64,000 nt of DNA, taken from positions 1,984,001 through 2,048,000 of the forward strand of contig NC_089441.1 of NCBI RefSeq assembly GCF_026210795.1, read 5' to 3'. Below, piece after piece: positions 1 to 36,300 of this stretch. The notes under the pieces were generated by a model. The model had not been told where the DNA came from and ran no database searches. It was given only the letters and a program-made list of their open reading frames with translations. Position numbers and translations under genes: made by a program. The DNA comes from Rhizophagus irregularis (taxonomy: Eukaryota > Glomeromycota > Glomeromycetes > Glomerales > Glomeraceae). Position 1 is the first letter of the stretch. Each line of letters begins with the position of its first letter.

Positions 1-290
1 CACATTTAAATTAAAGTATTATGTAAAGTGTAAAATAATAATATATGAAAATACTTACAAAGAGCTTGTATATATCGTAAGAAACATACATATCTTTATG
101 TCATGGTCATTATAATCTCCAATTTTACGTAAAGTTATCAAATACCAAATTTCTTTATTTTACAAATAAAATATATTTAATATAAAATAAATTATTAAGA
201 AAGATAATTTACAAGTCTCATACCTGCACAAATACATGCAATTAAATAAAGAACATAAAAAATTTTAATAATAATAATATAAGCTTTCAT
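1..290 (-). CDS. Six-exon membrane/secreted-like family, copy 1 (3' end outside window)
   Basis: Unrecognised family. The ATG is the complement of 288-290. Exon 1 encodes a short basic start and a hydrophobic stretch (MKAYIIIIKIFYVLY then LIACICA) like a signal peptide or anchor. It ends in phase 1 at a GTATGAG donor. Exon 2 starts after an AG at about 172 with the family signature EIWYLITLRKIGDYN and runs to a GTAAGT donor near position 58, in phase 2. Both exons are open and have the same phases as in the complete copies below. The remaining four exons lie left of the window. Expression and function are unknown; a secreted or membrane location is inferred from the hydrophobic start only. 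Confidence 0.6.
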
Positions 291-490
291 GGTTTAATCA
301 ACAAATACTAAGTAATTTTTTTTCTTTTAAAAAAAAAAAACTTTGAGGTATGAAAACATCATGCCATTCTTAACATGGTATATACTATATTTGAGGAGCG
401 AGTTTAGAATCAGGTTGGTAAAATTGGTGTCTCACGCCTAAACTTTAATTTCACATGATAAACGGCGACTTTACCTTATCATTTTGCCAA

Positions 491-541
491 AAAAGGAAAT
501 AAAATAATAAGATTTCGGTGTAACAAAATTTTCGTCATTTT
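491..541 (-). promoter_or_regulatory. Conserved upstream box of the six-exon family (copy 1)
   Basis: In gene orientation the segment has a TGTTACACC-like core followed by ATCTTATTATTTTATTTCC, about 200 bases before the start of copy 1. Related boxes sit upstream of other copies at 1831-1873, 2598-2647, 4501-4556, 21151-21215, 30245-30280, 32455-32495 and 33825-33866, and in opposite orientation near 35730-35770. Conservation between otherwise diverged flanks suggests a promoter element, but it could simply be duplicated flank. Confidence 0.4.
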
Positions 542-839
542 ATGATATACGGACCAAAATGTTAATTTTATACGCAAGTACAACATGCAGAAGGGATAGA
601 GATGTCATACTTTAATATGTAAATGTTTAGTATAATATGCGATACTAGCAACTAATTATGTAATACATTTCAAATTTACTATCAGCATCAAAATTTTGAT
701 ACGATTACGAAAATCGAATTTTCTATATTGACTAATCTTTTAAGGTGGATATTCTTAGGTTTATTTGCTGCTTATTTAACATATGATTAATGATCCCGAC
801 GTAGAATTAACATTATGTCAAAAATTTTATAATAATTAA

Positions 840-1727
840 TTATAAGACGAACAAATTTCTTTGTAAACTATTGGAAATTCTCTTAGTTACGTTTGAAATC
901 AAAAAATATAAAGGAATTAATAAAGAAAATGCGTATAACGAAAAACCCAAAGTGTAACTTATAAATCTTCTTCTGCACGCAATTTTAATATTTTCTGATA
1001 CATTATAGCTAAAATTGCAATTAAAAGGAACTTCTTCACGAATAAAATTTGGAATAAAATATCTTAGTCCTAAATAAATGTACATATATACAGTAGATTA
1101 GTCATTGCATGTATTTAATAATATATACTAATAATAAATAATTTGAACTTACCAAAAAAATTGAATATAAAACTAGCCAAAATACTAATACTGTCATGTA
1201 TAATTAATTTTTTAATAAATTAAATTGATATGACAAAGAATGCAAACAATTTTATTTATACTTACAGAGTATATATGAATAAATTATAGAGGGTATCATC
1301 ACCATCACTGTCATATTTGGTATATAGTACTAAAAGATAAATAGAATTTTAATTATATAGAAACTAATAATGAAAGTATCAATATTCAACAAGTTTATAA
1401 CTTACCAAATATTATTAGGAAAATATTTCCAATAAAATAACTATGATTAAATATAAATAATACATTTAAATTAAAAAATCGTAAAATGTAAATAATAATA
1501 ATACACGAAATTACTTACAGAATGTCTGAATATATAATAATACCTCCAATTTTATGTAAAGATACCAAATACCAAATTTCTATATATATATATTTTTTTT
1601 TTCATAAATATAAATAAATCTAAATTTGATAATTAAGAAAAAACGGTACAAATCTCATACCTGTGCCAATACATGCAATGAAGTAAAGAACAAAAATAAT
1701 TTTAATAATAATAATAGAAACTTTCAT
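840..1727 (-). CDS. Six-exon membrane/secreted-like family, copy 2 (intact)
   Basis: Manual splicing gives exons 1661-1727, 1519-1579, 1406-1440, 1266-1329, 1153-1190 and 840-1069: 495 nt, 164 residues. Every donor is GTAAGT- or GTATGA-like, every acceptor is AG, and phases alternate 1, 2, 1, 2, 1 without a stop. Exon 1 encodes a signal-peptide-like MKVSIIIIKIIFVLYFIAC. Exon 2 carries EIWYLVSLHKIGG; exons 3 and 5 are short and hydrophobic; exon 4 is acidic (KYDSDGDDT). Exon 6 holds the best conserved block (VPFNCNFSYN, ENIKIACRRRF, TLGFSLYAF), a hydrophobic stretch, and a basic tail ending NLFVL. Two cysteines (FNC, IAC) are shared by intact copies. I do not recognise the family; a small secreted or membrane protein is inferred. 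Confidence 0.7.
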
Positions 1728-2181
1728 GGTTAAAGTCTGATTATAATACAAAATCTTGCTCTTCTTTATATAATATTTTTTCTTGTGAATTTTCGATTTT
1801 TTTTAAATAAAGAACGATTTTATTTTTATTATTACTATGGAAATAAAACAATTGGTGTCATGTCGTCATTTGTATAACATGAGATTTCTTTGTATGTGTC
1901 TATGTGACGCACAACGCCTTAACATCATTTTCTAATATGGTAAGGTATACAAGGCAACTAAAAACAGTATATTAAAACATTAAAGCTAATATTTATCATC
2001 TATTGATTTCCCATATTCAAGAATGTAATAAAATGGCAACCTGATAAAATTTTAAATTTTTATTTATTTTTTATATTTTTTATTTTGTAGTGACAGAAGG
2101 ACTAGGGAAAACATAGAGGAGAAACTTGCTTAGGTTAACTTACGTGCCTGGCTTTTCCTTATTATTTGTAAATAGAACAAA

Positions 2182-2345
2182 CACATTTAAATTAAAGTAC
2201 TACTATGTAAAATGTTATATGAAATTACTTACAAAGAGCCTGTATATATTGTAAGATCAACACGCCATGGTCATTATAAATTTTACGTAAAGTTACCACA
2301 TACCTGTACCAATACATACAATCAAATAAAGAATATAAATATTTT
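2182..2345 (-). pseudogene. Six-exon family, copy 3 (relic of exons 1-2)
   Basis: The segment matches exon 2 and exon 1 of the family, but intron 1 is almost gone, the start codon has become ATA, and exon 2 is shortened. Exons 3-6 are absent. The family's upstream box is still present at 2598-2647, so this was once a full promoter-bearing copy. Confidence 0.6.
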
Positions 2346-2389
2346 ATGGTTTACTTAATAACTGGATTTGATACAAATTTTAATCTTAT

Positions 2390-2452
2390 AAAAAAATTCT
2401 GGAAAAAATTCCGATAAATGATCATTTTTCTGAAAAATTTTTTATAGGGTAA
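2390..2452. repeat. Short repeat ending TTTTTTATAGGG
   Basis: About 60 bases containing TGATCATTTTTCTGAAAAA followed by TTTTTTATAGGG. Related copies are at 3722-3782 and, inverted, at 57675-57750. The TATAGGG end is also found on the larger CCCTGTAAAA MITE family in this window, so these may be its truncated relatives. Confidence 0.4.
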
Positions 2453-2799
2453 TAAATATTATGTACTTTTCTTTTTTTCTTTAAAACAAATTTCCCGCAG
2501 TAAGGTATTGTATTTAGGCTAGTAAATAGATTAAAATTGGTATCATGTGTCAATACCATTCTGTTCTTCATTGTCATCTTTTATTATTTTACAAAAAAAG
2601 AAGATAAAATAATAAGATCCTAGTGTAACAAAGTTTCGTCATTTATGTATTAAAGTGTACAAATAAAAAGATCATAAATAAATATATTTTATTATTATTG
2701 ATAATATAGAATAATTAAACTAGAGCGCCGAAACTTTTCGGAACCATTCTGCATATTAATAATTGCTTAAATTCTATTGGTCAATTTGGTCCTGTGATG

Positions 2800-3013
2800 T
2801 AGTGTTTGGATCCGAAGCGGTTTTATCCGGTTTTTATCCGGTATCCGTTTCGGTTAATTCAGGATAGAACTATCAGAATTACCAATTTTTTGATTCATAA
2901 TATATTAAATATTCTGGTCGAAATTATAGTCTATTCAGAACTGAGATTTACAATCTTTTTTCGGCAATAATCTCATTTAAAATATTTAAGATTTTATCCG
3001 GATCAAAACACTA
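2800..3013. mobile_element. hAT-like MITE with perfect 8-bp target duplication
   Basis: A 214-bp element starts TAGTGTTTGGATCCG and ends CGGATCAAAACACTA, so the terminal inverted repeats are 15 bp with one mismatch. CTGTGATG occurs immediately on both sides (2792-2799 and 3014-3021). An 8-bp duplication and TAGTG-type ends are hallmarks of the hAT superfamily. The element has no coding capacity, so it is non-autonomous. Confidence 0.8.
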
Positions 3014-3203
3014 CTGTGATGTCAGGCCCCGTGTAACGTCATGTGAAAGATGTGACACAAATATGACCAAGAATTTTGGCTATATTTCAGCATATATCAA
3101 ATCCCGAATATATTTCGATATATGTAGGTTTCGACATCCAAGTTTAAGATGTAAATATTTCAATTTATTACTGAGATTTCTCACGTATCAAATTTACATA
3201 CGA

Positions 3204-3240
3204 TTACGAAAGGTTTGAAACAGAAATTGGATATAACAAA
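3204..3240 (+). pseudogene. Relic of a BTB gene first exon
   Basis: The segment GATTACGAAAGG followed by TTTGAAACAGAAATTGGATA closely matches the start of the BTB-TLDc genes near 37040 (GATTATGAAAAACTTTTTG, then AAACAGAAATAGGATATGA). It is only about 37 bases long, so chance cannot be fully excluded. A second similar relic is at 34228-34268. Confidence 0.4.
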
Positions 3241-3405
3241 TCGTATTAAATTAATCTTTTAAGATATATTTCTAATAAATATTTAAATTTAGGTTTTATT
3301 GGATGCTTATTAAAAATATGATTAATATTTACATAAAATTGAAAAACAAGATTTTATTTATAACCTTGAATAGCATTATTATGCTAAACCTTCCATAATA
3401 ATTAA

Positions 3406-4394
3406 TTACAAGACGAACATATTTTTTTGTAAACTATCAGAAATTCTCTTAATTACTTCAAATAATTTTGGAAACAAATAATTTAAAAAAATGATTAATA
3501 AAGCAAATGCATATAATGAAAAATCTAATATATAACTTATAAATCTTCTTTTGCACGCAATTTTAATATTTTTTGACGCATTATATTTAAAATCGCAATT
3601 AAAAGGAATTATTTCCCGAGTAAGTATTGGAATTAAGTATCTTAGTCCTAAATGTGTGTATATACAATATACAGGTTAACCATTGCATGTACTTAATAAT
3701 ACCCATTAATAAAAAATTTTTTGGAATAAAAACAAGAAAAATGATCTTTAATTGGAGTTTTTCCTAGAAAATTTTTTATAGGGTATTTAATAATACTTTA
3801 ACTCTCTTATTAACTTACCTGAAATATTAAATATACCACTAAACAAACTACTATACATAATTAATTTTTTAATAAAATATGATGACAAGGAAAGCAACAA
3901 TTTTATTTACAGTATACTTACGAAGTATAAATGGTTAACTTTTTAAGAGTATCATCATATGTGCGATATACTAGTACCAAAAAGTATAGATTTTCATTAT
4001 ATAAAAACTACTAAGTAATGAAGTATCAATAGGATTATAACTTACTGAGTATTATTATGAAAATATTTCCAGTAAAGTAACTATAATTAATCATATTTAT
4101 AATTAACGCATTCATGTTACAAGAAAACGTAAAGCGTAAAAAATAATATTTACATAGCGTCCGAAGTTATAATTAGGAATTTGAGTGGATCTTCAAAAAC
4201 ATTAAATAAAGGTACTATATGCCAAATTTCTATGTATATATATATATATATTATATATTAGTAATATTACAAATATAAAATGAATAAACCTAAATTTAAC
4301 GATTAGGAAAAAACATTACAAGTCTCATACCTGTACCAATACATGCAATATAGTAAAGAACAAAAAAAATTTTCGTAATAGTAGAATTTTTCAT
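3406..4394 (-). CDS. Six-exon membrane/secreted-like family, copy 4 (intact)
   Basis: Splicing as in copy 2 gives six open exons with identical phases and about 165 residues. Exon 1 encodes MKNSTITKIFFVLYYIAC. Exon 2 diverges after EIW (HIVPLFNVFEDPLKF). Exon 3 has YFTGNIFIII and exon 4 RTYDDTLKKL. Exon 6 keeps IIPFNCDFKYN, NIKIACKRRF and the QKNMFVL tail, ending TAA at 3406-3408. The second donor is GTAAAT rather than GTAAGT. Exon 2 varies in length between paralogues while exons 3 and 6 are conserved, so the middle may be the variable functional part. Function is unknown. Confidence 0.65.
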
Positions 4395-6500: not shown

Positions 6501-6602
6501 TAATAACAAATTTTTATTATGATAAATAATTTAATAACATTTACAAATACGTTATTGTTTATAAATAAGCTACATAAAATATTCAACTATATATAGTATA
6601 AA

Positions 6603-8617
6603 TTATTCTCCTAAAAGTTCTTTTAATCCTTCTTGAGCTATAGCATTTCCTAAATTTGCTGCCATTTGATAGTATTCAAATGCCTTTTGCATATCAACAT
6701 TAACTCCAATTCCATGTTGATAACATTTTCCTAACAACATTATTCCACCTGTATACCCTCTTTCAGCTGTTTTTTTAGATAATTCAAAAGCTTTAGAATT
6801 ATCATTAATTTCTGTATAAATATACATCACAGCAAGGTTATACATAGCTTTAATATTTCCTAAATCTGCTGCCCTTTGAAATAAATCAAATGCCATTTGA
6901 TTATTAATCCTAGTTAAAACTCCAAAACTATAACAATGTCCTAACCAATTTAATCCATTAGAATATCCTTTTTCTGCTAATTTTCTAGATATTCTAACTG
7001 CAATATTATAATTACTATTACAACCTTCTCCATAATAGTACGAGTGATAAAGATGAAATAAAGCCATATCATTTCCTAATATTGCTGCTTTTTTGTTTAA
7101 TTCAAATGCCTTCTGCTTATTAATATCAGTCCCAATTCCATGATAATTAAAATATCCAAGTAAACAAATAAATTCTGAATTATCTTGATTGTTTAAAAGC
7201 CAATGGTAGGCTTCTTTTGGATTAATTTTATAATGAACAAAATAATCAAAAACATACTTTTTTAATACATCATTCTCATTCCCTTCATTCATTTTCTCAA
7301 AGTAAATATCAAACAATCCATCAATTAAAGAACTTAAATCATCAAATATATCTTGGGTTGTAGGATCTATTTCCTTTATATCAATATTATTAAAATGTTG
7401 GATGTTATGAGAACACATTTCATATTCTGTTTCATAATAATTCGTCCTTGCAATAATTTCTTTTAATCTATCGACCACATGAATAATTGTTGGTCTATGG
7501 TTTGGTCCGTTATTCAAACATTCTAATCATAATATAGAATGAAAATTTAATTTTTGTATGATAACTGACAATACGATAAACTATAATATTAAAAATTATT
7601 CTTACCAATATACAGATTAGAATATTCGACAGGGGTATCTAAAAACATTGGTTCTTTATAACCTTGCTTAATTAAATTATCGTCACATAATTTGTCTTTA
7701 GTAAGTGATGGTTGACCGCTTGACAACTCCCATAAAAGAATCACTCCAATACTGTATGTATCATTCCTTTCATTTGGTGAGTACTTATTTGGATCAAAAT
7801 AAGGCATATAATCGAACGATTCCAATTGCCTCTTAGATTCTCTTTTGGTTCTGCTTAATAATCCAAAGTTGGCTAATTTGATAGTGTTCTGATGAATAAA
7901 AATATTGTCAGGGTACTAAAAAAAGAAGAATTTTTAATTAAGGTTTATTTATCTTAAAAATTTAACGAAATAAATAAATTACCAAATTATAATGCGGAAT
8001 TCCTTTATTGTGAAGTAATAACACAGCGCATGCCAATTGGTATGCCAATTCGTATTTGTCTTTCCAGGTAAGATTATTAAGGGTTTCTTTCAAATAATTT
8101 CGAAGGGAACCACCGTTAGCGTATTCCATTATCAATAAATATTCCCTCATTTGATCATTTTGATTTGCTGAAATCGTAAAGGAAATAATAATTAATTTAT
8201 TGTATTAATATATTTTTTAAAAAAAAAAATCTATGGATTTGAATAATGTATACCTTTATCGGTAATTCCGAATAGTTTAATCATATTTGTATGAAAATTA
8301 ACTTCATTATGAAATTTAAGCTAAATTATAAATAAAATATAGATAAGTTTAATTATTATTTGATGTTATTATGATGATGTATCACAGTTATTAACTTTGT
8401 ATGTAATTACCTCATTAATAATCTCTTCTTTATTTGCACTGGCATTGTTAAGGTTAAAGGACTTTAATATAACATATTGCTCTGAATAATTCCAATTGGC
8501 GAGATAGGTGTTTTCGTTAATTTTTTCAATATTGTAAAAATTTTTGTATTCGTAATATTTTATATTGTTCTCGTAGATAACTTCCTTAATCAAATCATAA
8601 CCTCTGGTGCTTTGCAT
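6603..8617 (-). CDS. Pseudokinase fused to Sel1-like repeats
   Basis: Five exons: 8411-8617, 8254-8320, 7983-8167, 7606-7915 and 6603-7522. They sum to 1689 nt (562 residues) with consistent phases. Residues 1-~285 are a tyrosine-kinase-like fold: VILKSF lysine, an EVNFHTNMIKLFG helix-C region, the EYANGGSLRNYL hinge, and C-lobe NDTYSIGVILLWELSSG and HRPTI. The catalytic HRD is HYN and the DFG is NFG (LANFGL), so the general base and the metal-binding Asp are both Asn. It is probably inactive or an ATP-binding scaffold. Residues ~370-558 hold about six Sel1 repeats (for example LGKCYQHGIGV, KAFEYYQMAANLGNA), which usually bind partner proteins. It diverges from the kinase at 10973. Confidence 0.85.
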
Positions 8618-8719: not shown

Positions 8720-9040
8720 GTTGTTAAATCCTGTATATATATATGTAAAAATCCAAATTCGAGCTAACTCAATTTGCGTACATTGGAACGATAGCTATTA
8801 AATCCATATATGTATATACATATATATATATGTCAGTTGCTCCAAATTGTTTGCACTGCAAACAATATAAAAATCCAAATTCGAGCTAACTCAATTTGTG
8901 CACATTGGAACGAAGAGTAAAAAAAATAGCTATTAAATCCATATATGTATATACATATACATATATGTCAGTTGCGCCAAGTTGTTTGTACTGCAAGCAT
9001 GTAAAAATCTAACTCAATTTGTGCACATTGGAACAAAAAG
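8720..9040. repeat. ~125-bp satellite, left block
   Basis: Two to three copies of a unit containing GCGCCAAGTTGTTTGTACTG, ATCTAACTCAATTTGTGCAC, ATTGGAACGAAGAG, TAGCTATTAAATCC and a palindromic ATATATGTATATACATATAT stretch. The same satellite resumes at 10085, so one array has been split by the element at 9049-10075. Confidence 0.8.
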
Positions 9041-9048
9041 GTGCATCA

Positions 9049-10075
9049 CACTCAGGTGCCGACTAAAGGTTATATGTCACAAGTGTATATGTTATGGGCG
9101 GCCAATGGGCAGCTCACTCGGACATCTGATGTCCCAGAATTTGAACATATGATGTTCTTATTAATCATACACGGTGTCTTATTATTAGATCTATCTCCAA
9201 TAAGCTACAATTCAGACCAAATTTAATGCTGGCTCACCAGAACTAGGACATCTGATATATATTATTAGGTTTCGATTCTGAAATCTGGAATTTGATATCC
9301 CTGTTAGCATGAGATTCTGAAATCCGAATATACAAAATTTGGCATATTTAAACTTTTGTCTATTTTGAAAGAAACCGAAAAAATTGAAAATTATAAATAA
9401 TTGAATTATTTATTAGCTTGTAATAATATTTATTTAAATAAAAAATTTATTTTATAAATTTAGGTTTATATCAAAAAAATTTTTATAATTTATATTAGAA
9501 TAAATAATTATAAAAAAAAGATAAAAAAAAATTATTTAAAAATATATTTTGTATTATGTGTACGATCATGTGATACTAAAATTGAATTTTTTGAAATAAA
9601 AACTTAGTAATTGTTAATAATTGATAGAAATAGAATTTTGCAATTACAATACATTTTATTTTAAATATAAAAAGCTAAATCTAATTTGTAGAGCATTCTT
9701 GTGACCAGTGTTACATTTGGCCCAAGTTGTTGCTTATTTAATAATTTGTGTCCTGGAATCCTAATTAATAAGGACATTATATGTCCAAATTCTGGTGGGC
9801 CGGCATTACATTATTTGGCCCAAATTTTAGCTATAGGCAACCTAATAAGTAATAATCCTATTAATAAGGACATCAGATGTCCGAGTGCTTATTTTCACAT
9901 AAATTTTTTCAATATTGGGCAGTGTTGTAAAGTTCGGCCCAAGTTATGTAGCCTATGGGAAACAGCAGGACATTGGATGTCCGAGTGAGCTGCCCATGGG
10001 CCGCCCATATAAGGTTATAACATATACACTTGTGATAAATAATAAGGATATAAGCTTTAATGATCAACCTGAGTG
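9049..10075. mobile_element. 1-kb inverted-repeat element inside the satellite
   Basis: The ends are CACTCAGGT (9049) and its inverse ACCTGAGTG (10067-10075). The inverted similarity continues inward through ACAAGTGTATATGTTAT, GGGCGGCC(A/C)ATGGGCAGC and TCACTCGGACATC for ~100 bases on each side. The interior repeats a GGACATCnGATGTCC palindrome several times and is AT-rich. I see no transposase. Short reading frames at 9041-9226 and 9701-9988 are part of this repeat. No clear target duplication was found, so the superfamily is undetermined. Confidence 0.65.
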
Positions 10076-10084
10076 GGTGAAAAA

Positions 10085-10745
10085 TAGCTACTGATTAAAT
10101 TATATGTATATATATATATGTATATATGTCAGTTGTGCCAAGTTGTTTGTATTGCAAGCATGTAAATATCTAACTCAATTTGTGCACATTGGAACAAATA
10201 ATAAAAAAAAATAGCTATTAAATCCATATATGTATATATATAAATACAAATCAGTTGCGCCAAGTTGTTTGTACTGCAAAGCATGTAAAAATCTAACTTA
10301 ATTTGTGCACATTGAAGCGAAGAGTAAAAAAAAAGAGCTATTTAATCCATATATGTATATATACATATATATATATGTCAGTTGCGCCAAGTTGTTTATA
10401 CTAAAATCTAACTCAATTTGTGCACATTGGAACAAAGAGTAAAAAAAAAAATAGCTATTAAATCCATATATGTATATATATTTATATATACGTCAGTAGC
10501 GCCAAGTTGTTTGTACCGCAAGCATGTAAAAATCTAACTCAATTTGTGCACATTGGAACGAAGAGTAAAAAAAATAGCTATTAAATCTATATATGTATAT
10601 GTATGTATATATATATCAGTTGCGCCAAGTTGTTTGTACTGCAAAAATGTAAAAATCTAACTCAATTTGTGCACATTGGACCTGAAAAGTAAAAAAAAGG
10701 AGTTATTAAAGCTATATATGTAAATATATATATATATATGTCAGT
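10085..10745. repeat. ~125-bp satellite, right block
   Basis: About five further units of the satellite described at 8720, with identical order of motifs. Each unit ends with a TATATGTATATACATATATA-type palindrome able to form a cruciform. The array lies 230 bases upstream of the plus-strand kinase start. Confidence 0.8.
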
Positions 10746-10972
10746 TCTTTGAACGCATATCAAATGTTGGATCACGTGGTGAAGTGCACGCGTCACGGCC
10801 GTCACGTCACTGAAATTTGTGCTGCGTCGATAAACAAAAAAAAAAATATATACGCTAAAAATGGATGTTACAATACAAAATTTTATCTCTCCGGACCCGT
10901 ATAAAAATCCCGGAATTAAAAATCCGATAGAAACAAAAATATTTTTTTTTATCATTTTTTATTATTATTATT

Positions 10973-13215
10973 ATGGCTCATGAATTTATCTATTCCGAAA
11001 TTCATAGAGCGGAGAAATTAGCAGAAAATACTCAAAATAACAAAGAAAAACAATATGAATCTATTAAACAAACAATACTTGCCGATCAAACTTTTACGAG
11101 CGATGAAAGATCACATGCAATAAAATTAATAAATAAAAAAATCGATAAATATAAAGTTCGAGAAAATAAAGGAACAAGAAGAACTTGTGAAATTTGTCAA
11201 GGAAAATGTCTAGCCACATTATATTGTGAATATTGCGTTCGAAATTATTTAATAGCACAATTCTCAAACTGGACATCTGAAAATGATAATATCGATAATT
11301 TAATACGTGAATGCCAAATGGAAACACTTAAACCAGATAATATAATAGAATGGATCCCATACAATAATTTACGAAGTATTAATTATTTAACTGATTGTTC
11401 TAAAATTTATAAAGCAATTTGGATTGATGGATATTATGATGAATGGGATTCTAAAGAAAATCAATTAAAAAGAATCGGATATAGCCCGGACGTGGTACTT
11501 AAGAAATTAGAAAATGTTGAAAAAGCCAATAAAAATTGGATTGATGAGGTATATATATATTTTTTTAAAAAAATAAAATTATATTTTTCTTATATATAAA
11601 ATAATTTAATAATAAAAATGAATTTGTGTTTCTTTTAGGCAAAATCCTACTTAAATATATGTAGTAAATATGGAGAGATATTAACATGTTATGGTTTAAC
11701 AAAAGATCCATCAGATGGAAATTATATGCTCGTAATGAATAAATCGCACATGAATTTAAGAGAATATTTAAAACGGAAGCATAACGAGATTACGTGGAGA
11801 GAGAGGATTCATATAACTGATGATCTTACGTTTGCTCTCTCCAAAATTCATAAGAATGGAGTAATCCACAAAAATTTACATTCTGGAAATGTATTGTTCA
11901 ATCAAAGAAACAAACAATTTTATATCACTGATCTTGGATTTCGCGGACCAGCTGATAGGCCATCAAATAGTATATATGGAAATCTTCCTTATATAGCACC
12001 CGAAATTATCTCCGGTAAAGAAATTACTTTTGCATCTGATATTTATAGTATTGGTATTCTTATGTGGGAAATTTCATTTGGAAAACCACCTTTCATTTAT
12101 CAGGAAGACGAACTTTTCCTTGCCATGAATATAATTAATGGGATAAGACCAAAAATTGAATCGGGAATCCCTTTAGAATACAAAAAATTAATGATGCAAT
12201 GTTGGGATGCTGATCCAAAAAGGCGGCCTAATATTGGAGTACTTAATAATAAAATCTTTGAAATGAGAAAACATTGTCAAAATATATCGAACGATTCAAA
12301 TAGTAATAATAGTAAGAATGAAGGCATGATTAAGAAATTTATTAAAAAACTTAAAGTTTTTCAACCAAAAACAAATGATATATTAGAAATTAGCGAGATA
12401 AGCAATTTGAATGAAACTGATTATAAATTATTTACAAGTAAAGTTTATGCATTTGAGGATTTTCCTGAACCAAGAAATGGAACGGAAGGTATGTATTGAA
12501 TGTATTATTAAGTTATATATAAAACTTGATTTCTATAATTATATTAAATATTCAAATTATTATATCGTTTAAATAAAATAGAGGAACAAGAAGGTATGCT
12601 ATTTAATTGAATCTTAGTATTTTTTTTTTTTTACTTGAAGAAAATGATTGATATTTTTTTTCAATATATTAATTTAAAGAATTTCATAATCAATCTTATA
12701 ATTTCAGCAATTCTAATAATAGTAAGTATTAATTAAAATTTTTTATAATTATACAATTGGAATTTTTATAATTAATTGATTATTTTTAGTCGATGATAAT
12801 ATTGTAAAAATGATGCAATCAAGTAGTATCTTTAAAGGTAATAGTGTTGTTAATTAAAATGATTTTGTTGTTCGATAATAAATTAATTGTTTTAATTAAT
12901 TTAGGTTCATCTAAGGTACCACAAATATATTCAAATGAAGGTAAGTCAACCAGGATTATGCGTTTGTTATTTTCAATATCCTCCTTATTTATGGCGTTTT
13001 TATTTTAGATATTCAAGTGGACTATAAAAGAGAAACAATACAACAAACAAAAAACGTAGATATTAAAGGTATGAAAATGATTATATAGTATTTATAATAT
13101 TTGTGGTTAATATTCTAATCGAATTTTTATATTCATAGACGAACATGAGTTATATAGTAATCCAAATCTTCATTCTGAGGACCAAGATGAATTAGAAATC
13201 CCTTGGATAATATGA
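10973..13215 (+). CDS. Pseudokinase with N-terminal CxxC module and micro-exon tail
   Basis: Eight exons: 10973-11548, 11639-12488, 12582-12593, 12680-12721, 12790-12837, 12905-12940, 13009-13068 and 13139-13215 (1701 nt, 566 residues). Residues ~64-90 hold a zinc-ribbon-like CEICQGKCLATLYCEYC. A linker (IIEWIPYNNL, SKIYKAIWIDGYYDEWD) leads to the kinase lysine (VVLKKLE). The hinge, IYGNLPYIAPE activation-segment end, DIYSIGILMWE and DPKRRPN regions are normal. The catalytic motif is HKNLHSGN instead of HRDLHSGN and DFG is DLG, so phosphotransfer is doubtful. All introns after the second exon are phase 1. The tail (ILEISEISNLN to LEIPWII) is low complexity. The 12-nt and 42-nt exons are my reconstruction. 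Confidence 0.8.
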
Positions 13216-19987: not shown

Positions 19988-20920
19988 TCACAAGACAAAC
20001 AAATATTTTTGTAAATTATATGAAATTCTCTCAATTAAGTCAAATAATTTAGAAAATAATTTAGAAAACCGCTTATATAAAAGAAAGATTAATAAAGTAA
20101 CCAAGGGAGTTGCATATAAAGAAAAACCTAAAGTACAACTTATAAATCTTGCTTTACATGCAATTTTAACATTCTCTGGCAAATAATAATTATAATTACA
20201 ATTAAAAGGGATTTCACCAAGATTTAAAGTTGGAACACGGTACCTAGCCCCCACTGTATATTTATAGGTTAGTTATTACATGTATAGTAAGAGAAGTAAG
20301 TTAAATTATTATTTATACTTACTGATAAAACTAAAAAATATACTAGATAAAGCAGAAAACCTATTATTTGTGATTAATTTTTAATAATTGGAATATATAT
20401 GACAAAAAATCAATTTATTTATACTCACCCAGAAATGCCTAAGCCGTAAGAAATAGTAGCATCTTCACCGTCTCCACTGACTTCATATGGTAAAATCCAT
20501 GCTAATAAAATTAATGGAATTTTTCGTTATTTAAAATAATAAAAGTGCCTGTCATCGAGATTATAACTTACTGAATACTAGTGGTATAAGAATCCCAAGG
20601 AAATAGCCATTAATAGTTAGATGATACATTTAAATTAAAATACGTAAAACGTAAATTAATTATAATATATGAAATTACTTACAAAAAGTCTATAAGTGCC
20701 AAAGTAGACATAGTTATGTCTACTCCATGTTCGTTATAATCTCCAATTTTACGTAAAGTTATCAAATACCAAATTTCTTTATTTATTTAATTTTTATAAA
20801 TAAATAAATTAATTAAAATTATTGAAAACTAAGATATTTTATAAGTCTCATACCTGTACCAATACATGCAGCCAAATAAAGAATATAAAAATTTTTAATG
20901 ATAACAAGAGAAGCCTTCAT
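19988..20920 (-). CDS. Six-exon membrane/secreted-like family, copy 5 (one damaged splice site)
   Basis: All six exons are recognisable. Exon 1 encodes MKASLVIIKNFYILYLAACI; exon 2 EIWYLITLRKIGDYNEHG; exon 4 (starting WILPYEVSGDGEDA) ends at GTGAGT; exon 5 FSALSSIFFSF; exon 6 YRVPTLNLGEIPFNCN, ENVKIACKARF, TLGFSLYA and a tail ending KYLFVL, stop TGA. The acceptor of exon 3 should be TAG but reads ATGG, with no usable AG before the exon. Skipping exon 3 (35 nt) breaks the frame. So this copy is probably non-functional, or uses an unusual acceptor. Its last exon is as well preserved as in intact copies, suggesting recent damage. Confidence 0.55.
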
Positions 20921-21634: not shown

Positions 21635-21832
21635 CCCTATAAAAATTTTATCCGTTATTTCTGTAAAACTCCGTAAAAAAAATCCGTATAAGTGAGCCTT
21701 TCACGGATCCATTCGCGGAAAATGTAAATGATTCGATAAATTCCGTGATATTAGGTTATTAATTCCGGAAATATGAGCCTTTTACGGAAAAAAAGATGGA
21801 ATGTAAAACAAGGATCGACTTTTTTTACAGGG
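21635..21832. mobile_element. CCCTGTAAAA MITE family, near-complete copy
   Basis: The 198-bp element starts CCCTATAAAAATTTTATCCG and ends GATCGACTTTTTTTACAGGG. Internal motifs are TTTCTGTAAAACTCCGTAA, GAGCCTTTCACGGATCCATT and CCGGAAATATGAGCCTTTTA. It is in the opposite orientation to the copy at 22852. Confidence 0.8.
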
Positions 21833-22851
21833 TTACTTCCGTTTACTCCTCACTCTACCGCTTAGCATCAAAAACAGAACAAACGAGATATACAATTTTT
21901 AATTTAATAACATATTCGGCAATAAATTTATCAATATGCCTGAAGAATTTATATATTAGTAGTATTTTCAAAGCTTATGTGACTTTTACTAGTTATATAC
22001 CAATTTCAAAATTTGTAAATTAGATCGAGCTTTCTATTAGTATATGATAACAAATTCTTATGTTCAAAGCGTGTTACTTGATATTTATGATAATAAATTT
22101 GATTACGTGATATAAATTTACGAAAGATGAATAAAACTGAAAATAATGTAATCTATCAAGAAAACTTACTATAGACCTTTATTCGATAATATCAAAGTAT
22201 GCATGGTATCATGTAAATATTTTCGCTTACATTTTAGTCCAGTTATTAAGAAATTTTCAGCTTATTAATTAGTAAATGATACCTGGTAAGCAGGAACGTA
22301 CTTACGTACAAGAATGTACAATAAACATAAAATATAATATAATAAAGTCAAAATAAAAAAAATAAAAAGGAAAAATAAAGTGAAAAGTAAAATAAAAATA
22401 TAAAGCACTACTACAATTTAAAAGTATTTTGACTGAATAATGAAATATACGAAAATATTTGAGAAAAAAATATAAATAAATTAATCAAAATTAATGACCG
22501 TTAGGGGATTAAAAGCGTCAGACAAACAATTTGTGAAATCAATAAGGAATTTTTTGAATAGCAGATAACATTTATATTATGATGCATAATGCATGGAGCT
22601 GGATTAATTATAGGAGGTTTATCTGTTGCATTAGAAGCAACAATAACAACAGGTTTAAACAGTGGAAGTTAATGAGTTCATTTGTTTTTAAGATTTTCGA
22701 GAATTGATTTGTTTGATTTTTTTGATTTATTTGATAAATGTGATTTGTTTTTGTTCTTGGACCTTTTTTTTACTTTGATGAGAAATTTTACAAGGGCGAA
22801 ATCAGAGCGTATTTATAGTAAACCTAACATATGATTAAAGCATAGAATATC
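21833..22851. other. Intergenic with a possible gene fragment
   Basis: At 22591-22671 a short plus-strand frame reads MHGAGLIIGGLSVALEATI then TTGLNSGS and stops. Its glycine-rich, hydrophobic composition looks like a membrane-protein fragment, but I cannot name a family. The rest is AT-rich with short A-rich repeats at 22320-22400. Confidence 0.3.
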
Positions 22852-23036
22852 CCCTGTAAAAAAAGTCAATCCGTTTTTTATATTCCATCTTTTTTCCGTA
22901 AAAGGCTCATATTTCCGGAATTAATAACCTTATATCGCGGAATTTATCGAATTATTTACATTTTCGTGAATGGATCCGTGAAAGGCTCATTTTTACGGAG
23001 TTTTTACAGAAATAACGGATAAAAATTTTTATAGGG
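22852..23036. mobile_element. CCCTGTAAAA MITE family, copy in reverse orientation
   Basis: Starts CCCTGTAAAAAAAGTCAATC and ends CGGATAAAAATTTTTATAGGG-like. ATC stands on both sides (3 bp). The arrangement is the inverse complement of the copy 1 kb to the left, so the two could pair over the intervening DNA. A 3-bp duplication is typical of CACTA/EnSpm-like or Harbinger-like elements. Confidence 0.8.
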
Positions 23037-23574: not shown

Positions 23575-23757
23575 TTTTATAGGTTAGTTATTACATGTAT
23601 CTTTTATACTTACCGTACAAACTAATAAACGCACTAGTAGTTTTTTTTAATTAAATAGAAAATATGATAAAAATCAATTTATTTATGATATTCAAATATA
23701 CGAAAATATCTTCGAATGGAAAATATGCACTAAATATTAATGTAATTTTTTTATTAT
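23575..23757 (-). pseudogene. Six-exon family relic (exon 5 region), cut by LTR
   Basis: The minus strand has a TAG acceptor followed by AGTGCGTTTATTAGTTTGTAC and a GTAAGT donor. Flanking intron words (TTAGTTATTACATGTA, AAATAGAAAATATGATAAAA) match the other copies. The LTR beginning at 23758 interrupts it, and exons 1-3 and 6 are not found. Confidence 0.5.
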
Positions 23758-25114: not shown

Positions 25115-27000
25115 CTATTTTGAATTTGACGGTCCCGCTTCTTCAGAGTCATAATCAGTATATGGAGCAGGGCGGGAACGTTTCGATGGTGTGTCTATAG
25201 GTGAGGAAAAAGATATCCTATTATCATTGATGTTGCGTTTGTAAGGACGGGATTCTAAGGCTGCGGTATCATCCGAGACAACCAGGGGTTTGTATGAAGG
25301 GACGAAAATAGTAGTTTCTCGTCTAATTTTGTAATCTTTAAGAAATTTCTTCAGGTCTCGTTTGAGAAATTTAGTTGATCGACCCGTGTCGATACGCTCC
25401 TTTCTTTTTGTTAAATAGTTGGGGATATATTTGTGGAATTCGTCTGTTGAGTACATTAAGAAATCAACTTGTGATTTACGAGCGTCCAGGTACTTGACAC
25501 TAGTACCAAGGTGTATCGCCTCTTGTTTGCGTTCCTCTATTTCTTTTGTTCTCCTTTCTTGCTTTCTATGTGTGATCTCTCAAATGCTTGTGTTACTTCT
25601 TGATGTACACGTTCATTAAATTCTTGTTCAGCTTGTTCATCGATAGATTTTTCCAGATTATACATATATGTGAACCATTCACGAGAACCTGGAGTAATAA
25701 AGCAATTGTTAACGTAAATGGGATCTTTGGGTATAATATCACGGTATTTTTTAGGAATAAACATGTTAGGAATAGGGTTGAACGGTTCGGTAACATCAGG
25801 AGGTTTTGGTGTGATTTTAGACGGTGTAGGTGGGTTTAAATGTTTCGATAAGGTGTTGATATTCTTCCAAGTTTTATTTTCATTGAGGTGTCGTTTAGCG
25901 TAAAATGGAACCAAAAATGGATAGTCCTCAGGATTCGGTTCGATAAAACTTTTCTTATATACTAAATGTCGAATGGGGAATTTAATGTACTGATTTTTTA
26001 AGAATATAAACTTGTGTTTTCTAGCTGTTGCTAATATGGCTTGGTGATTGTCTCCTATAGCTTTACCAAGAACGCGCCGACAAGCACGAGTAAATCTTTT
26101 TTCTTGTTTTTGTTGAGTACGGAGATTAGGACTAAAAATCCGTTGAAAGTTGGAAAAGACTTTTCTGTACATATGTTTACTGCCCAATTTAAGGATTGAA
26201 TTAGCATCCCGAGCGTGGATTGAGCTGATGTAAGAAACGCCCGTTCTTTTGGAGTAATGATGTTTAGGCTGACTAGAAAGCCATCTGTGATATAAAAGGT
26301 TAGCATGAGAAGATTTATTGTTAATAAAATCTTCATTTGTTTGTTTTTTAAGTATATTATTTTTTGGTTTGATATTCTTGTAAAAATGGTGTTTAGCTAA
26401 ATTTTGTTGATGATTGATGCAAGCACATCGATCATGTGACATAATAAAAGGACTAGGGATTCGACATAAGGGAGGTGTATAGGGGTTATCAGAATTGTTT
26501 TTGAATGAACAAGGGATATAAATTCCAAAATAAAAACGATATCTTTTGTAACTAAAATTAAAAAAAGTTTTCGTCATCGTGTTCTTTTTTGCCATCAAAG
26601 AAGCACGTGATTCAATAATTTTTCTTCTATCCAATAATTTATTGCGAATTAAATTGAAATATTTTTGTTGTACACGACGGGGTATAACTCTTTGTAAAGA
26701 AAAAAAATGTGTGAGCATGCAACTAATTTGGTATTTGTCATTCGGGAATGAACTCGTGTTACTATAACTAATAGGTTTAGTGTTCATCTGATAATCATTT
26801 GTGTATATTTTTAAATGAATATTATTGGTGTTCGGGGAACGATCAGCGAGCTCAAAAAAGAAACTCCTAGATCGGCGTATTTCATATATCTTGTTAAAAC
26901 CTGATCGATTTGGTTTGATCACGTGAAATTTTTTCAGGGACACCTGTAGGGGAGTTTTCGATAAAATTTTTTCCGAAGGAAAAATATTTTCGGAAGACAT
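25115..27000 (-). CDS. Long basic protein in two overlapping frames, unrecognised
   Basis: The first frame runs from ATG 27000 to a TAG at 25537 (487 residues). It is rich in Lys, Arg, Phe, Pro and Asn, with RRVQQKYFNLIRNKLLDRRK, HDRCACINHQQ and IIPKDPIYVNNCFITPGSRE motifs and a charged helical end (EQAEQEFNERVHQEVTQAF). A second frame, shifted by -1, is open upstream of the first stop and continues as a charged helix (EIEERKQEAI, then LGTSVKYLDARKSQVDF) to a stop at 25115. It adds ~140 residues and ends with Ser/Pro- and acid-rich sequence. Base composition is GC-richer than the neighbours. No usual retrotransposon or transposase domain is recognised. It could be a frameshifted gene, a spliced gene, or a mobile-element ORF. 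Confidence 0.5.
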
Positions 27001-27565: not shown

Positions 27566-27597
27566 ATCACTTATTCGGCACTTCGAACCGAATAACT

Positions 27598-29173: not shown

Positions 29174-30184
29174 CTACAAGATAAATAAATTTCTTTGTAA
29201 ATTATCATGGATTCTCTTAATTACATTAGGTAATTTTAGGATCAAATTATATAAAAAAACGAAAATTCTATTAATTACGTTAAGTAATTTTAGGATCAAA
29301 TTATTATATAAAAAATTGAAAATTCTCTTAATTACGTTAAGTAATTTTGGAAACAAAATATATAAAATTATTAATAAAGGAATCAGCGGAGATATAAAAC
29401 CTAAAATGCAACTTGTGAGTCTTGTTTTACATGCAATTTTAACATTCTTTGGTAAATCATCATGATATTTAAAATCACAATTAAAAGGGACTTCTCCAAG
29501 ATCTATAAATAGAAAAAAAAATCTTGCTATCAAATGTGTGAAAAGTTAGTTGTATATTTTATAGGTAGAGAAATAACTGAATTATTTATTAAATCTATAA
29601 AAACTTACGTGAAAAATAATTGAAACCACCAAGATACCTGGTTTTTTTTGGTTGGTTTTTTTAATAAATTAAATAGATACTGTATAATAATAAATCAAAT
29701 TTATTCATACTTACAAAAAACTTTCTATCAATCTTTTAAAAACTTTGTTAAAATAACCTTGACGTGCGTAAATCATTACTATCAATGAATTAATATATTA
29801 TAAATTTTCATTATAAATAATAAATTATCGGTAAGATTATATAACTTACAGTATATTAATGGCACAAGAAAATTTCCAATAAAATGACTATGTTTAAATT
29901 ATATTCAAAGTTAACACACTTAAATTAAAATAGTAATATACGAAATTACTTACAAAGCACTTGTATATATCAATAAAAACTTTCCTGGATGTACACCATG
30001 ATCATTATGATCCCCAATTTTATGTAAAATTACCAAATACACGATTTCTATTTTTTTTTTCGTAAAAAAAATTTAAATAAAATAATTAAGAAATAAAAGT
30101 TACTTATTTAAACTTCATACCTGAACAAATACATGCAATTGAATAAATAGTACAACAAATTATAATAACATTAGAAGCTTTCAT
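29174..30184 (-). CDS. Six-exon membrane/secreted-like family, copy 6 (intact, long C-terminus)
   Basis: Six open exons with the family phases, ~213 residues. Exon 1 encodes MKASNVIIICCTIYSIACIC; exon 2 EIVYLVILHKIGDHNDHG; exon 3 FHFIGNFLVPLIY; exon 4 RQGYFNKVFKRLIESF; exon 5 YLGGFNYFS. Exon 6 carries DLGEVPFNCDFKY, NVKIACKTRLTS and ILGFISPLIPLLIILYI. The C-terminal tail is longer than in copies 2 and 4: a unit NVIKRIFNFLYNNLILKLL is repeated about three times, showing growth by internal tandem duplication within exon 6. The protein ends NLQRNLFIL, stop TAG at 29174-29176. Confidence 0.7.
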
Positions 30185-31378: not shown

Positions 31379-31863
31379 ATACCGATCATTAAAGATTAAT
31401 TATTGTTCTTTTTTGCAGGTGAATATGAAAAAAATTTTCCTAGTATGAATATTTAATTGAAATCTAATAAAGTTGTATTTGTTGTGTCAATTGCTAACTT
31501 TGATAGTATGTGTATCTCCAAGAACAATTTGTCATTAGCCGTTAAGGTTTAATATATATGTTAGGATTCTGTGTTTTTAAAAGCATAATCAACAATAAAT
31601 AATATTTTCTTCCAATTTTTGGAAATATTTGATGATTACAAGAAACATTTGGGGATGCAATGTATTATATATATATATCAATGACGAAACAAATATTATA
31701 TTTGCGTCAATGCATTCATAATAAGAATACATATGAGATGAAATTAAATATTTCTTCTAATTTCAAAAATTTATTTATAATAAATTATCAGACAAAAAGT
31801 TTACACTTTACACTTATGTAACGTAAATGCTATCTTTCACGATAACTTACTTCACTTCATTTG
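31379..31863. other. Duplicated flank
   Basis: No gene. Words such as GTATCTCCAAGAACAATTTG, TTTTTGGAAATATTTGAT and AATCAAATATTATATTTATG-like recur in the same order at 34400-34620, showing that a ~2.5-kb unit including the intergenic DNA has been duplicated. Confidence 0.5.
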
Positions 31864-32319
31864 TTACAAGACGAGCAAATTTTGTGAATTAGATAATTAA
31901 ATAAGGTAACTATGTGTAAAACGAAAAATTAAAAAGACTAATTAATAAGGTAATGTGTAAAACGAAAAATAAAAAGACTAATTTAATAAAGGAAATGCAT
32001 ATAACGAAAAACCTAAAGTACATAAAAGATAATGATGAACCACCGTATATTATTAGAAAAGTATTCCAATAAGGTAGCTATGAATAATTTAATGTTAATA
32101 CATTTAGATAAAAAAAAGTAAGATCTAAATAACAATATATGAAAGTTACTTACCAACTGCTTGAATATATAATTTACCTATGAGTGGTTTTACACCATGA
32201 ACCATTTAAAGTTACCAAATACCAAATTTCTAATTTTTTTTTTATAAATACTAAATATAAAAATTATGAAAACTTTACAATTCTCATACCTGCACCAATA
32301 CATGCAATAAAGTAAACAT
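31864..32319 (-). pseudogene. Six-exon family, copy 7 (decayed)
   Basis: Parts of exons 1, 2 and 3 and the very 3' end of exon 6 are identifiable. Exons 4-5 and most of exon 6 are deleted; a short GTGTAAAACGAAAAATAAAAA unit is duplicated near 31914-31972. Exon 1 is shortened and its ATG is out of frame with the conserved GCATGTATTGGTGCAG end. Confidence 0.65.
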
Positions 32320-32737
32320 GGTTAAACAAATATAATACAAAATTCGCTCTTTATAAAAACATTAGATACAGAACGTAAAAAGCTTTTATTTTATTACTAG
32401 TGGTAATCCGTTTCTTCGCAGAAGCATCACACAAATGATATTTAGGTTCTGTCAAAAGGGTAAATAAAATAATAAAACCTGGTGTGACGTAACTGAGATA
32501 ATAAAACCGACTTTAACCTACATACAGTTTAAGGTAATTGAGGTTCATTACTATACATTAGTTAGACTCATTTGTTAGGTTCCTTATGGAATTTATGTTT
32601 CAGTTTATTAATTCTCATAAACCAAAGGAGCGCTAAGTTAAAGGGGTACTAGGTTTAAAGGAGCTCTAGGTTTAAAATATGATTAATAATCTGAATAAAA
32701 GAAAGCTTACGACTTGTAAAACTTTCACAGTAATTTA

Positions 32738-33727
32738 TTACAAGACGAACAAATTCTTTTGTAAATTATCAGGAATTCTCTTAATTGCGTCAAGTAATTT
32801 TAAAATCAAATTATATAAATGAATAAAAATTCTCTTAATTACATTAAATAATTTTTGCAACGGATTATATAAAAAATTGATTAAAAAAGAAATAAATGAA
32901 ATTAAACATAACAAAAAACCTAAAGTGTAACTTGTAAGTCTTGCTTTACATACAATTTCAAAATCAATTAAATCATCATCATATTTAAAATCACAATTAA
33001 AAGGGACTCCAAGATCTATGAATATTAAAAAAATTCTTACTATTAAAATATATATAAAGTTAGTTTTAAAATTTATTAATAAAGAGAAATAATATAATTA
33101 AATTATTTATTATAAAGATTTATATAAACTTACACGAAATAATATTAATAATCGTATTAGATATAAAAATGACCCAGCTTATACTATTTGTAATTGATTT
33201 TTTAATAAATTAAATAAATATGACAAAAAAACTTAATTCATTTATACTTACGATACAATAGGCATCATTAGATTGGTGTTAGTAATACTGCTACCATGTA
33301 CACAAAATAATACTAAAAATAAATAAATATAAATTTTCATTATATATAAAACTAACAATAAATTATCAGTGAGATTATAACTTACTGAATATTAATGAAA
33401 AAAGAATTCCAATAAAATATCTACGTATAATTAATTTCAAAGTTAATGCTCTTAAATTAAATGAGTGAAACGTAAAATAATTATATATGAAATTACTTAC
33501 AAAGTATCTGAATATATCAAATAAGCCTTTCCTGGATATATTCCAGAATCATAACCTCCAATTTTATGTAAAATTACCAAATACCAAATTTCTATATATA
33601 AATTATACAAAATAAACAAATTTTTATATAAAGTAATTAGGAAATACTTTATAATAAACATCATACCTGAACAAATACATGCAACTAAATAAAGAATACA
33701 AATTATAATAATAAGAAAAGCTTTCAT
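32738..33727 (-). CDS. Six-exon membrane/secreted-like family, copy 8 (intact)
   Basis: Six exons of 61, 91, 35, 61, 50 and 302 nt total 600 nt (199 residues) with consistent phases and no stop. Exon 1 encodes MKAFLIIIICILYLVACIC, a convincing signal-peptide-like sequence. Exon 2 has EIWYLVILHKIGGYDSGIYP; exon 3 YFIGILFSLIF; exon 4 HGSSITNTNL; exon 5 SWVIFISNTI. Exon 6 has LGVPFNCDFKYDDD, EIVCKARLTS and a hydrophobic stretch, followed by duplicated NVIKRIF/DAIKRIP tail units and NLQKNLFVL. It is about the same organisation as copy 6. Confidence 0.7.
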
Positions 33728-34640
33728 GGTTTATTTTAAAATACAGAATATTTTAATTATGAAAAAGTTTTTTCTAAAAAATATTTGATTCAAACGCAAG
33801 TAATATTTTTTTTATTATTATACCAAAAGAGGAAATGAAACAATAAGATCATGTTGTAGCTAGAGTTTTATGAAGTGAATCCGGATATCTTATTATCCGG
33901 CAGATTGCAAACCGGATGATCCTAAGATAATCCGGAGATTAGCTGCTAAATATTTTAACAAATAAAATTTATTATGAAACAATATTCCTTTTTTAAGAGG
34001 CGATGGTTATGTACACATCGTCATTTTACTCATTTGTAATCATCACATGGTCAGTTTTTTATTAGAAATAATATTTGATTCGCACCATCCAATCGATCAA
34101 CAAAGGTTCTAACCTTACATTGTTGGTAGGAAAATCCGGTGATGTCACGCAAAAAAGATATACAAGAATTTACTATAATCGTAAAATCGTACGAATTTTT
34201 CAAAAATGGTATCAAAATTTTTGATGATTACGAAAAACTTGCTTGGAATAGAAATAGGATGTGAGAACAATATATACTAAAAAAACCAAATTTTATGGAT
34301 CAAAAGATACGGTACCGTTATGCATAGTAGCGTTAAAGTAGAAATTACGGCGATCCATAGTGCTGTTATTATAAACATTTTTTTATTAATGAGGGAGTAT
34401 TTATTGTCATATGTATCTTCAAGAATAATTTTGTCATTGTGAGGTGCAGTTGCTGGTTAAGGTTTCAGAATTTTGCGTTCTTAAAAACATGCCTTAAAAT
34501 ACTACCGATTTTTGGAAATATCAAAACTTTTTAGAATATAATCATGTTATTATATATCAATGGAGAATCAAATATTATATTTATGTCAATAAAATGGAAT
34601 AAAAGTAGGAAATACATATTCATAAAAGTTTACACTTATT
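33728..34640. other. Intergenic between copies 8 and 9
   Basis: Contains the upstream box (33825-33866) and a second short BTB-exon-like relic at 34228-34268 (GATTACGAAAAACTTGCTTG, then ATAGAAATAGGATG). No gene. Confidence 0.45.
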
Positions 34641-34644
34641 TTTA

Positions 34645-35524
34645 CATACAAGACGAATAAATTTCTTTGTAATTTTTCAAAAATTCTCTTAATTAGTACG
34701 TCAAGTAAGTAATCTTAGAAACAAATAATAAAGAAACAAATAATAAAGAATGAATAATAAAAGAAAAGCGTATAAGACAAAACCAAAAGTGTAACTTATA
34801 AATCTTGCTTTGCAAGCATTTTAACATTCTCTGGCAATTGTATTATTTAAAATCACAATTAAAAGGAATTTCACCAAGACCTTTAATAGGGACATAAAAT
34901 CTTCCTCCTAAATGTGTGTACATGTTAGTTATTGCATGTACTAATAAGAGAAATTATTAATACCTATTTAAAACTTACCTATACCAATAACCATATTTGA
35001 ACATATATTATTTGTAATAAATTTCAACAAATTAAATAAATATTACAAAAGTAAGCAATATTGTTTATACTTACAAATAATATATTAAAAAACTTGTAAA
35101 AACATCGTCATGTGTGAAATTTAATACTAAAAATAAGTAGTTAATTAGTTTTTAGATGGTAAAAAAATTCAAGCATTAATAGAATTATAACTTACTGAAC
35201 GCTATTAGTAGAAAATACAGCCACTATGAATAAATTACATTTAAAATTAATACACTCAGATTATAAAAAGTAAAAATATATGCCCGAAAATATAGTTAGA
35301 TTTATGTTTTGTTTTACATCATGAGTCCATGATCGTTATAATCTCTAATATCACGTAAAGTTATCAAATGCCACGTTTCTACTTTTTTTATAATAAATAA
35401 ATTTAAATAAAATAATTAAGAAAGATGCTTTACAAATCTCATAGTACCTAAACAAATGCATGCAAATAAATAGAGAAAACAGATAATTTTAACAGTAATA
35501 ATACTAGAAGACTAGAAGCTTTCA
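34645..35524 (-). pseudogene. Six-exon family, copy 9 (frameshifted)
   Basis: Exon 1 contains a perfect 8-nt tandem duplication (ACTAGAAG twice on the plus strand, ~35502-35518) that shifts the signal-peptide frame. Exon 6 keeps YVPIKGLGEIPFNCDFK but then reads TAA where other copies continue, and later frames are shifted. Splice sites are still recognisable, so inactivation looks recent. Confidence 0.7.
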
Positions 35525-35854
35525 TGATTATGAAATATATTGCACTTAAGTAAGGCATTTTAATATTGGGCAATATCGGGTCGATAATGTAGGCCTGTGT
35601 CATCTGACGCATAAATAAATTTTGCATGAAAAGATGTTCCTCTATTATAATATTTTTGTGTTAAAAATCGGGTTTGTCTGACAACTTTATATACACGGAT
35701 GACGACATATCATCACATCAAGACATTGTTTTATTTCCTCTTTTGGTAGAATAATAAAATAAAATTGTTCCTTATCTGTATTTTTTAAAAAAAAGAAAAA
35801 TACTTCATAAAGAAAAGCAAAATTGTATCATAATTATACTTTAAGTCTTTAACC

Positions 35855-36300
35855 ATGAAAGCTTCTATTATTATTACTAAAATTATTTTATTTTTTGCTT
35901 TGTATGAAACTTGTAATGTTTTTCCAAGTTTTTAAATTCAGAGGTAGTACATTTATATATTCGGGCATTCTGTAAGTAATTTCATTTATTATTTACGCTT
36001 TACGTTTTTTACCCTGAATATATTAACTTAAATATAATTTAATCATAGCAGTTATTTCATTGGAAATATTTTTCTAATAACATTCAGTAATTTATAATCC
36101 TATTGATATTGATTCACTATTAATTTCTATATAACGAAAAATTTTTCGCACATATGGCGATACTCCTAAAGATTTATTCACTTATAATTCGTAAGTTGTA
36201 AATAAAATTGTTGCTTCTTTGTCACATCAATTAGTCATGTATTTTATTAAAAAATTAATTATACAGTGTTAGTATTTGGCTTAGCATTTTTGGCAAGTTA
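35855..36300 (+). pseudogene. Six-exon family, copy 10 (inverted, lacks exon 6)
   Basis: The plus strand starts ATGAAAGCTTCTATTATTAT like other first exons. Pieces of exon 2 (TATATATTCGGGCATTCTGTAAGT), exon 3 (TTATTTCATTGGAAATATTT), exon 4 and exon 5 (acceptor ACAG then TGTTAGTATTTGGC) follow in order. Exon 6 is missing and exon 2 is truncated. It lies head-to-head with copy 9, the only family member on the plus strand. Confidence 0.6.

Follow-up and report, generated by a model that had tools for sequence, protein, structure and literature searches.

The window analysed here, a stretch of 64,000 nucleotides of chromosome 13 of the arbuscular mycorrhizal fungus Rhizophagus irregularis (C13:1984001-2048000), carries an array of six-exon genes belonging to a Glomerales family without a functional name. 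On balance, we consider it probable that these genes encode small tetraspan membrane proteins, likely residing in the fungus's own membranes, and not secreted effectors. At least seven intact copies were found in the genome searched (146,748,485 bases, 32 contigs), on three chromosomes (C13, C5 and C6), with chromosome 13 holding five intact copies (A, B, C, D and F) together with seven damaged or relic copies, one of them weak; counts from protein searches of this genome are lower bounds. The history of the family is best read as tandem birth and death. Genetic work on arbuscular mycorrhizal fungi is difficult, and a large share of their genome is restricted to the lineage and has no known role; a compact, well-bounded family of probable membrane proteins whose gene structure is clear, with apparently old lineages and seemingly strain-variable copies, offers a testable entry to their surface biology.

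Six-exon gene models

A sequence-only reading of the window had proposed a multi-copy family with a fixed exon order and intron phases 1-2-1-2-1, a proposal borne out by GT-AG exon chains assembled by hand, by a chain search and by a null control. Four window copies, the number that it had given, have GT-AG introns in these phases and splice into open proteins of 164-213 residues. Copy B (840..1727, minus strand; exons 1661-1727, 1519-1579, 1406-1440, 1266-1329, 1153-1190 and 840-1069; 164 amino acids) and copy D (3406..4394, minus strand; exons 4331-4394, 4154-4229, 4046-4080, 3922-3970, 3819-3850 and 3406-3647; 165 amino acids) were obtained both by hand assembly and by the chain search, each with a stop codon at its end. 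Copy C (29174..30184, minus strand; exons 30121-30184, 29954-30047, 29850-29887, 29715-29778, 29609-29637 and 29174-29526; 213 amino acids) and copy F (32738..33727, minus strand; exons 33667-33727, 33501-33591, 33386-33420, 33252-33312, 33134-33183 and 32738-33039; 199 amino acids) were returned by the chain search. The C-terminal tails of copies C (29174-29526) and F (32738-33039) contain repeated units of ~18 residues, which lengthen exon 6. Copy A had been recognised as lying only partly in the window. Its exon 1 is at 224..290 and its exon 2 at 59..152 on the minus strand; exons 3-6 lie beyond the window, and the chain search completed the gene as C13:1983367-1984290, coding for 181 amino acids.

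Comparison with database proteins gave close agreement. The spliced protein of copy A is identical to P0004 (OCT59_005015), copy C and P0002 share 137 of 138 aligned residues and copy F is identical to P0001 over the latter's 159 aligned residues. The chain search also found intact copies on C5 (174 amino acids) and C6 (148 amino acids). The C6 model equals P0008, as the copy A model equals P0004, letter for letter, pieces of both having been among the search seeds.

The search was seeded with family peptides, and own or near-own pieces of six of the seven intact copies were among the seeds; the C5 copy had no own seed, yet its chain scored 461. In the null control, 74 window tiles outside the family yielded one open six-exon chain, with a score of -27.3, against 461-1090 for the seven family copies. 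Two weak genome matches gave no family chain, one on C22 (E value 0.76; both strands, best score 18.5) and one on C2 (E value 0.77; on the one strand examined, score -62.4). Exon lengths that are equal modulo 3 follow by construction, because the chain search imposes the phases; independent of that search are the hand-built copies B and D and the database proteins P0003, P0004 and P0008. Under neutral simulation of copy B (2000 trials at each level), the splice sites and open frame were kept in 0.35 %, 0 % and 0 % of trials at 0.1, 0.2 and 0.25 substitutions per site, where 0.2 is about half of the synonymous divergence (dS) between B and D (0.41). Each inner exon changes phase, so losing a single one breaks the frame, which would fit the constant number of six. 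An internal duplication (exons 2-3 versus exons 4-5) was considered as the source of the alternating phases and found no support, the alignment scores being 0.1 for exon 3 versus 5 (shuffled mean 0.7, standard deviation 6.0) and -1.7 for exon 2 versus 4 (shuffled -7.2, standard deviation 6.6).

It had also been suggested that annotation probably misses or fragments the family. Several records are indeed wrong: P0001 lacks part of exon 6, and in P0007, P0011, P0002 and P0019 the start or the end is incorrect or truncated. However, the claim that the family is probably missed was too strong, because proteins with all six exons are recorded (P0003, P0004 and P0008). The assembly of strain DAOM197198 is described as comprising 32 chromosomes and 146,773,001 bp, and its gene models as built from Illumina reads and then refined with Nanopore RNA reads (PMC10234402). 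For the six-exon models, support from transcripts is indirect. As the six-exon family illustrates, short-exon genes end up wrong or cut in current annotations.

Selection and predicted architecture

Selection was assessed by codon-based maximum likelihood (ML; GY+F3X4) on the seven paralogues, using columns with at most two gaps and, as the statistic, twice the log-likelihood difference from omega 1 (given in brackets). Over all columns, omega was 0.47 (29.7). Conservation of the last exon had been set beforehand as one of the results on which the proposed family would stand or fall, and exon 6 returned an omega of 0.41 (17.8), rejecting omega 1, as did exon 1 with 0.38 (6.0). Omega 1 was not rejected for exon 2 (0.74; 0.8) or for exons 3-5 (0.67; 1.2). 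Purifying selection thus acts on exons 1 and 6 and is not detectable on exons 2-5; exons 2 and 4 vary across copies, as anticipated. Constraint is less clear by simple counts than by codon ML: the pooled Nei-Gojobori ratios of non-synonymous to synonymous differences (pN/pS) were 0.68, 0.95, 0.87, 0.92, 1.15 and 0.69 for exons 1 to 6 and 0.81 overall. Between B and D, the introns are about as similar as the exons in a gap-permissive alignment.

Hydrophobic peaks (Kyte-Doolittle, 19-residue window, at least 1.3) occur at four corresponding places in 8/10 proteins. The exceptions are copy C, in which helix 3 is below the threshold and the tail scores instead, and P0010, which has three peaks. 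Low-confidence AlphaFold models predict four long helices for P0003 (3-34, 45-68, 78-114 and 129-189) and helices at 2-31, 45-68, 77-103 and 124-180, plus a short one at 34-39, for P0004; the two models are not independent, because their alignments overlap. Structural matches common to both include the four-helix membrane proteins synaptogyrin and VKOR-like. In the predicted layout, exon 1 corresponds to helix 1, exon 2 to loop 1, exon 3 to the core of helix 2, exon 4 to loop 2 and exon 5 to the core of helix 3, with exon 6 providing loop 3, helix 4 and the tail. All 12 full-length proteins possess a Cys pair, 12-16 residues apart, before helix 4, as well as four hydrophobic residues at the C-terminus, and loop 3 reads P[FL]NC...C in each of them. 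The seven intact copies combine the last-exon motif PFNC-x(11-15)-C with six exons in phases 1-2-1-2-1, and all seven have a Cys at residue 17-20, in exon 1.

If both termini lie inside, the orientation that we assume, loops 1 and 3 would therefore face out. The conserved Cys pair of the outward loop 3 would then form a disulfide, and the C-terminus, conserved and hydrophobic, would function in export from the endoplasmic reticulum or in anchoring. The helices would form a constant scaffold, braced at loop 3, that sits in hyphal or vesicle membranes and assembles with partners, whereas loop 1 (encoded by exon 2) and the segment from exons 4 and 5 would diverge between tandem copies. The repertoire would be renewed on chromosome 13 as copies duplicate, decay or are lost from particular strains. 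From the combination of a conserved scaffold and variable segments, we favour a role in organising the fungal membrane or in displaying a variable loop there. The charge distribution weighs slightly against the assumed orientation: among 12 proteins, Lys and Arg were more numerous in loops 1 and 3 in six, fewer in four and tied in two. We regard it as very unlikely that the genes form a strain-variable tetraspan surface set in which a diversifying loop 1 on the constant scaffold lets hyphae recognise each other or the host interface; such a set would be renewed through tandem birth, loss and splice-site decay.

The sequence-only reading had pointed to a secretory start and a surface or effector-like role. 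In the full form of the effector reading, exon 1 would be a cleaved signal peptide and the remainder would act in the plant, as expected of a secreted or host-delivered effector family. The hydrophobic N-terminal exon, the small size, the tandem copies, the variable exons 2-5 and, among the matches listed, the occurrence of named relatives only in plant-symbiotic Glomerales agree with this, but in 8/10 proteins three more hydrophobic stretches follow exon 1, and four helices are predicted. Signal peptides are usually loosely constrained, whereas exon 1 belongs to the best-conserved parts of the family (omega 0.38, with the Cys noted above), although it may still include a cleaved signal. Because of the four predicted helices, the constrained exon 1, the Cys pair before helix 4 and the conserved hydrophobic C-terminus, the effector reading is weak, and we hold it to be improbable.

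Comparison with known families

The tetraspan layout raises the question of whether these proteins belong, as diverged members, to one of the four-helix families already described (MARVEL, claudin-like Sur7/Fig1, tetraspanin or VKOR-like), which we consider unlikely. Pfam scans at E values up to 10, on sets of seven and eight proteins and with HMMER filters that drop most matches above 0.1, gave no credible match: Bestrophin-like (0.74), Ost5 (1.4), NVEALA (2.2) and Rota_NSP4 (4.1) were each hit by one member and are taken as chance, and none of the four-helix families named above was among them. A PDB sequence search with the family alignment returned 0 matches at an E value of 10. A viral fold library gave no match at 0.001, the best weak ones being uncharacterised or transmembrane giant-virus proteins.

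MARVEL proteins, including the fungal Nce102-type, carry Cys in the loop that joins helix 3 to helix 4, as does the six-exon family. Further resemblance lies in the four predicted membrane helices with short loops and in synaptogyrin, which both models have as one of their structural matches. Neither the profile nor hhalign supported membership: no match to PF01284 was obtained in the sets of seven and eight proteins. A genome search with PF01284 found two other genes. One of these, used as a single sequence, was compared by hhalign, with a resulting probability of 0.2 on a scale of 0-100; over its domain this R. irregularis MARVEL match forms a single open frame, in contrast to the six exons here. 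The large loop joining helices 3 and 4 of tetraspanins contains a CCG motif, and loop 3 lacks CCG in 12/12 proteins of the six-exon family. Claudin, Sur7 and Fig1 proteins have a Cys pair in loop 1; within the hydropathy limits of loop 1 no Cys was found in any of the 12 proteins, copy A and P0009 having one Cys just beyond these limits and no pair.

RiPEIP1 of R. irregularis, for which Fiorilli et al. reportedly described several predicted membrane helices in 2016, is alike by description only. SP7-like effectors contain hydrophilic imperfect repeats, several with a nuclear localisation domain, and their paralogues are scattered over chromosomes (PMC11333574). The six-exon genes share with them the small R. 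irregularis family, the hydrophobic N-terminal start and the restriction to Glomeromycotina; however, their proteins are hydrophobic, the genes lie mostly in one array, and repeats were seen only in copies C and F, in the hydrophobic tails. A signal peptide followed by hydrophilic imperfect repeats does not describe these mostly hydrophobic proteins, and SP7-like membership was rejected. Aphid bicycle genes are likewise fast-evolving with a gene structure better kept than the sequence, but belong to another kingdom and are candidate effectors expressed in salivary glands (PMC9168663). The AGL proteins of Glomeromycotina are also candidates for the cell surface, being variable, specific to this group and difficult to assemble; they differ in being disordered, proline/glycine-rich tandem-repeat proteins (PMC8786786).

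Damaged copies, relatives and neighbouring features

All of the places that had been listed as copies or relics are related to the family, one weakly, though not all yield a full gene. Copy E (19988..20920, minus strand) has readable exons 1, 2, 4, 5 and 6 (20854-20920, 20683-20776, 20429-20501, 20323-20360 and 19988-20253) and, in this genome, no AG acceptor for exon 3, and no open exon 6 was found in the damaged copy at 34645..35524 (minus strand; blastn best E value 2e-92). Relics lie on the minus strand at 2182..2345 (blastn E value 5e-23 versus copy A) and 31864..32319 (9e-43 versus copy B), with a weak one at 23575..23757 that is recognisable at the nucleotide level (2e-7 versus copy E; protein-level E value only 0.2). 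The stretch at 35855..36300 had been counted as an array member; it is related (blastn E value 8e-52), but lies inverted to the array, on the plus strand. Relic coordinates were verified with blastn and tblastn. Outside the window, the genome protein search placed a further relic at C13:1980.2 kb, and C16:3848828-3849342 is a partial copy matching P0003 residues 2-98, to which the database protein P0013, ending after the exon 4 part, is related.

Such an accumulation of damage on chromosome 13, where damaged or relic copies (seven, one of them weak) outnumber the five intact ones, would be expected if the family were mostly decaying under relaxed selection, its intact copies being survivors without a present role. 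The weak Nei-Gojobori constraint (exon 5 pN/pS 1.15), the failure to reject omega 1 for exons 2 and 3-5 and the missing acceptor of copy E are in line with this. Yet omega 1 is rejected for exons 1 and 6, relatives are kept in R. clarus and Glomus cerebriforme, and 0/2000 simulations stayed intact at 0.2 neutral substitutions per site; we therefore judge general decay to be rather unlikely.

Protein relatives were sought in 5.77 billion sequences, one search scoring the 7988 candidates that shared most words. Among the matches listed, they occur only in R. irregularis, R. clarus (P0009, P0018/P0021, P0024 and P0025) and G. cerebriforme (P0010), together with fragments without an organism name. 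Members from the latter two species are known as proteins only, the six-exon structure being established in the R. irregularis genome. P0024 is identical to the C5 copy at 118 of 173 aligned residues. A tree of 11 rows (midpoint root, 4/8 inner branches open; P0024 and P0025 absent) groups B with D (100/98), A with E (as P0003) and R. clarus P0009 (99/99), and the C6 copy with R. clarus P0018 (100/100). Because P0009 and P0018 group with R. irregularis copies, two or more lineages seem to be older than the split between the two species. Copies also seem to differ between strains, since exon 3 is present in P0003 (RhiirB3_521282; strain B3 by its tag), which is near-identical to copy E, and since another record, P0005, differs from copy A (125 of 144 aligned residues match, although some of the mismatch may be an annotation error at the P0005 end). 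Among the papers listed, a literature search of titles and abstract starts found no description of the six-exon family; most subscription papers lay outside its coverage, so unpublished status is not proven.

The guanine-cytosine content of the window is 22-30 % in 4-kb steps, and Rfam gave 0 matches on the window at the gathering score. Between six-exon copies lie a Sel1-repeat frame (6603-7517, minus strand) and a protein-kinase frame (11726-12499, plus strand), and near copy E, at 21718-22965, two 76-bp inverted repeats, 96 % complementary and 1.1 kb apart, may delimit a small transposable element. The 4-kb step with the strongest G skew contains a 487-codon open frame (25537-27000, minus strand), which has no Pfam match at 0.001. 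Three related tandem genes lie on the plus strand (37392-38489, 41064-42152 and 46588-47793), their DNA 79-94 % alike in repeat blocks; the Pfam scan covered the first and third, both of which match TLDc (PF07534) and BACK (PF07707). Two further repeats were seen: eight diverged copies of a 74-bp unit at 8791-10772, mostly ~120 bp apart and around AT-rich TATATG stretches, and three head-to-tail copies of a 203-bp unit at 50706-51314.

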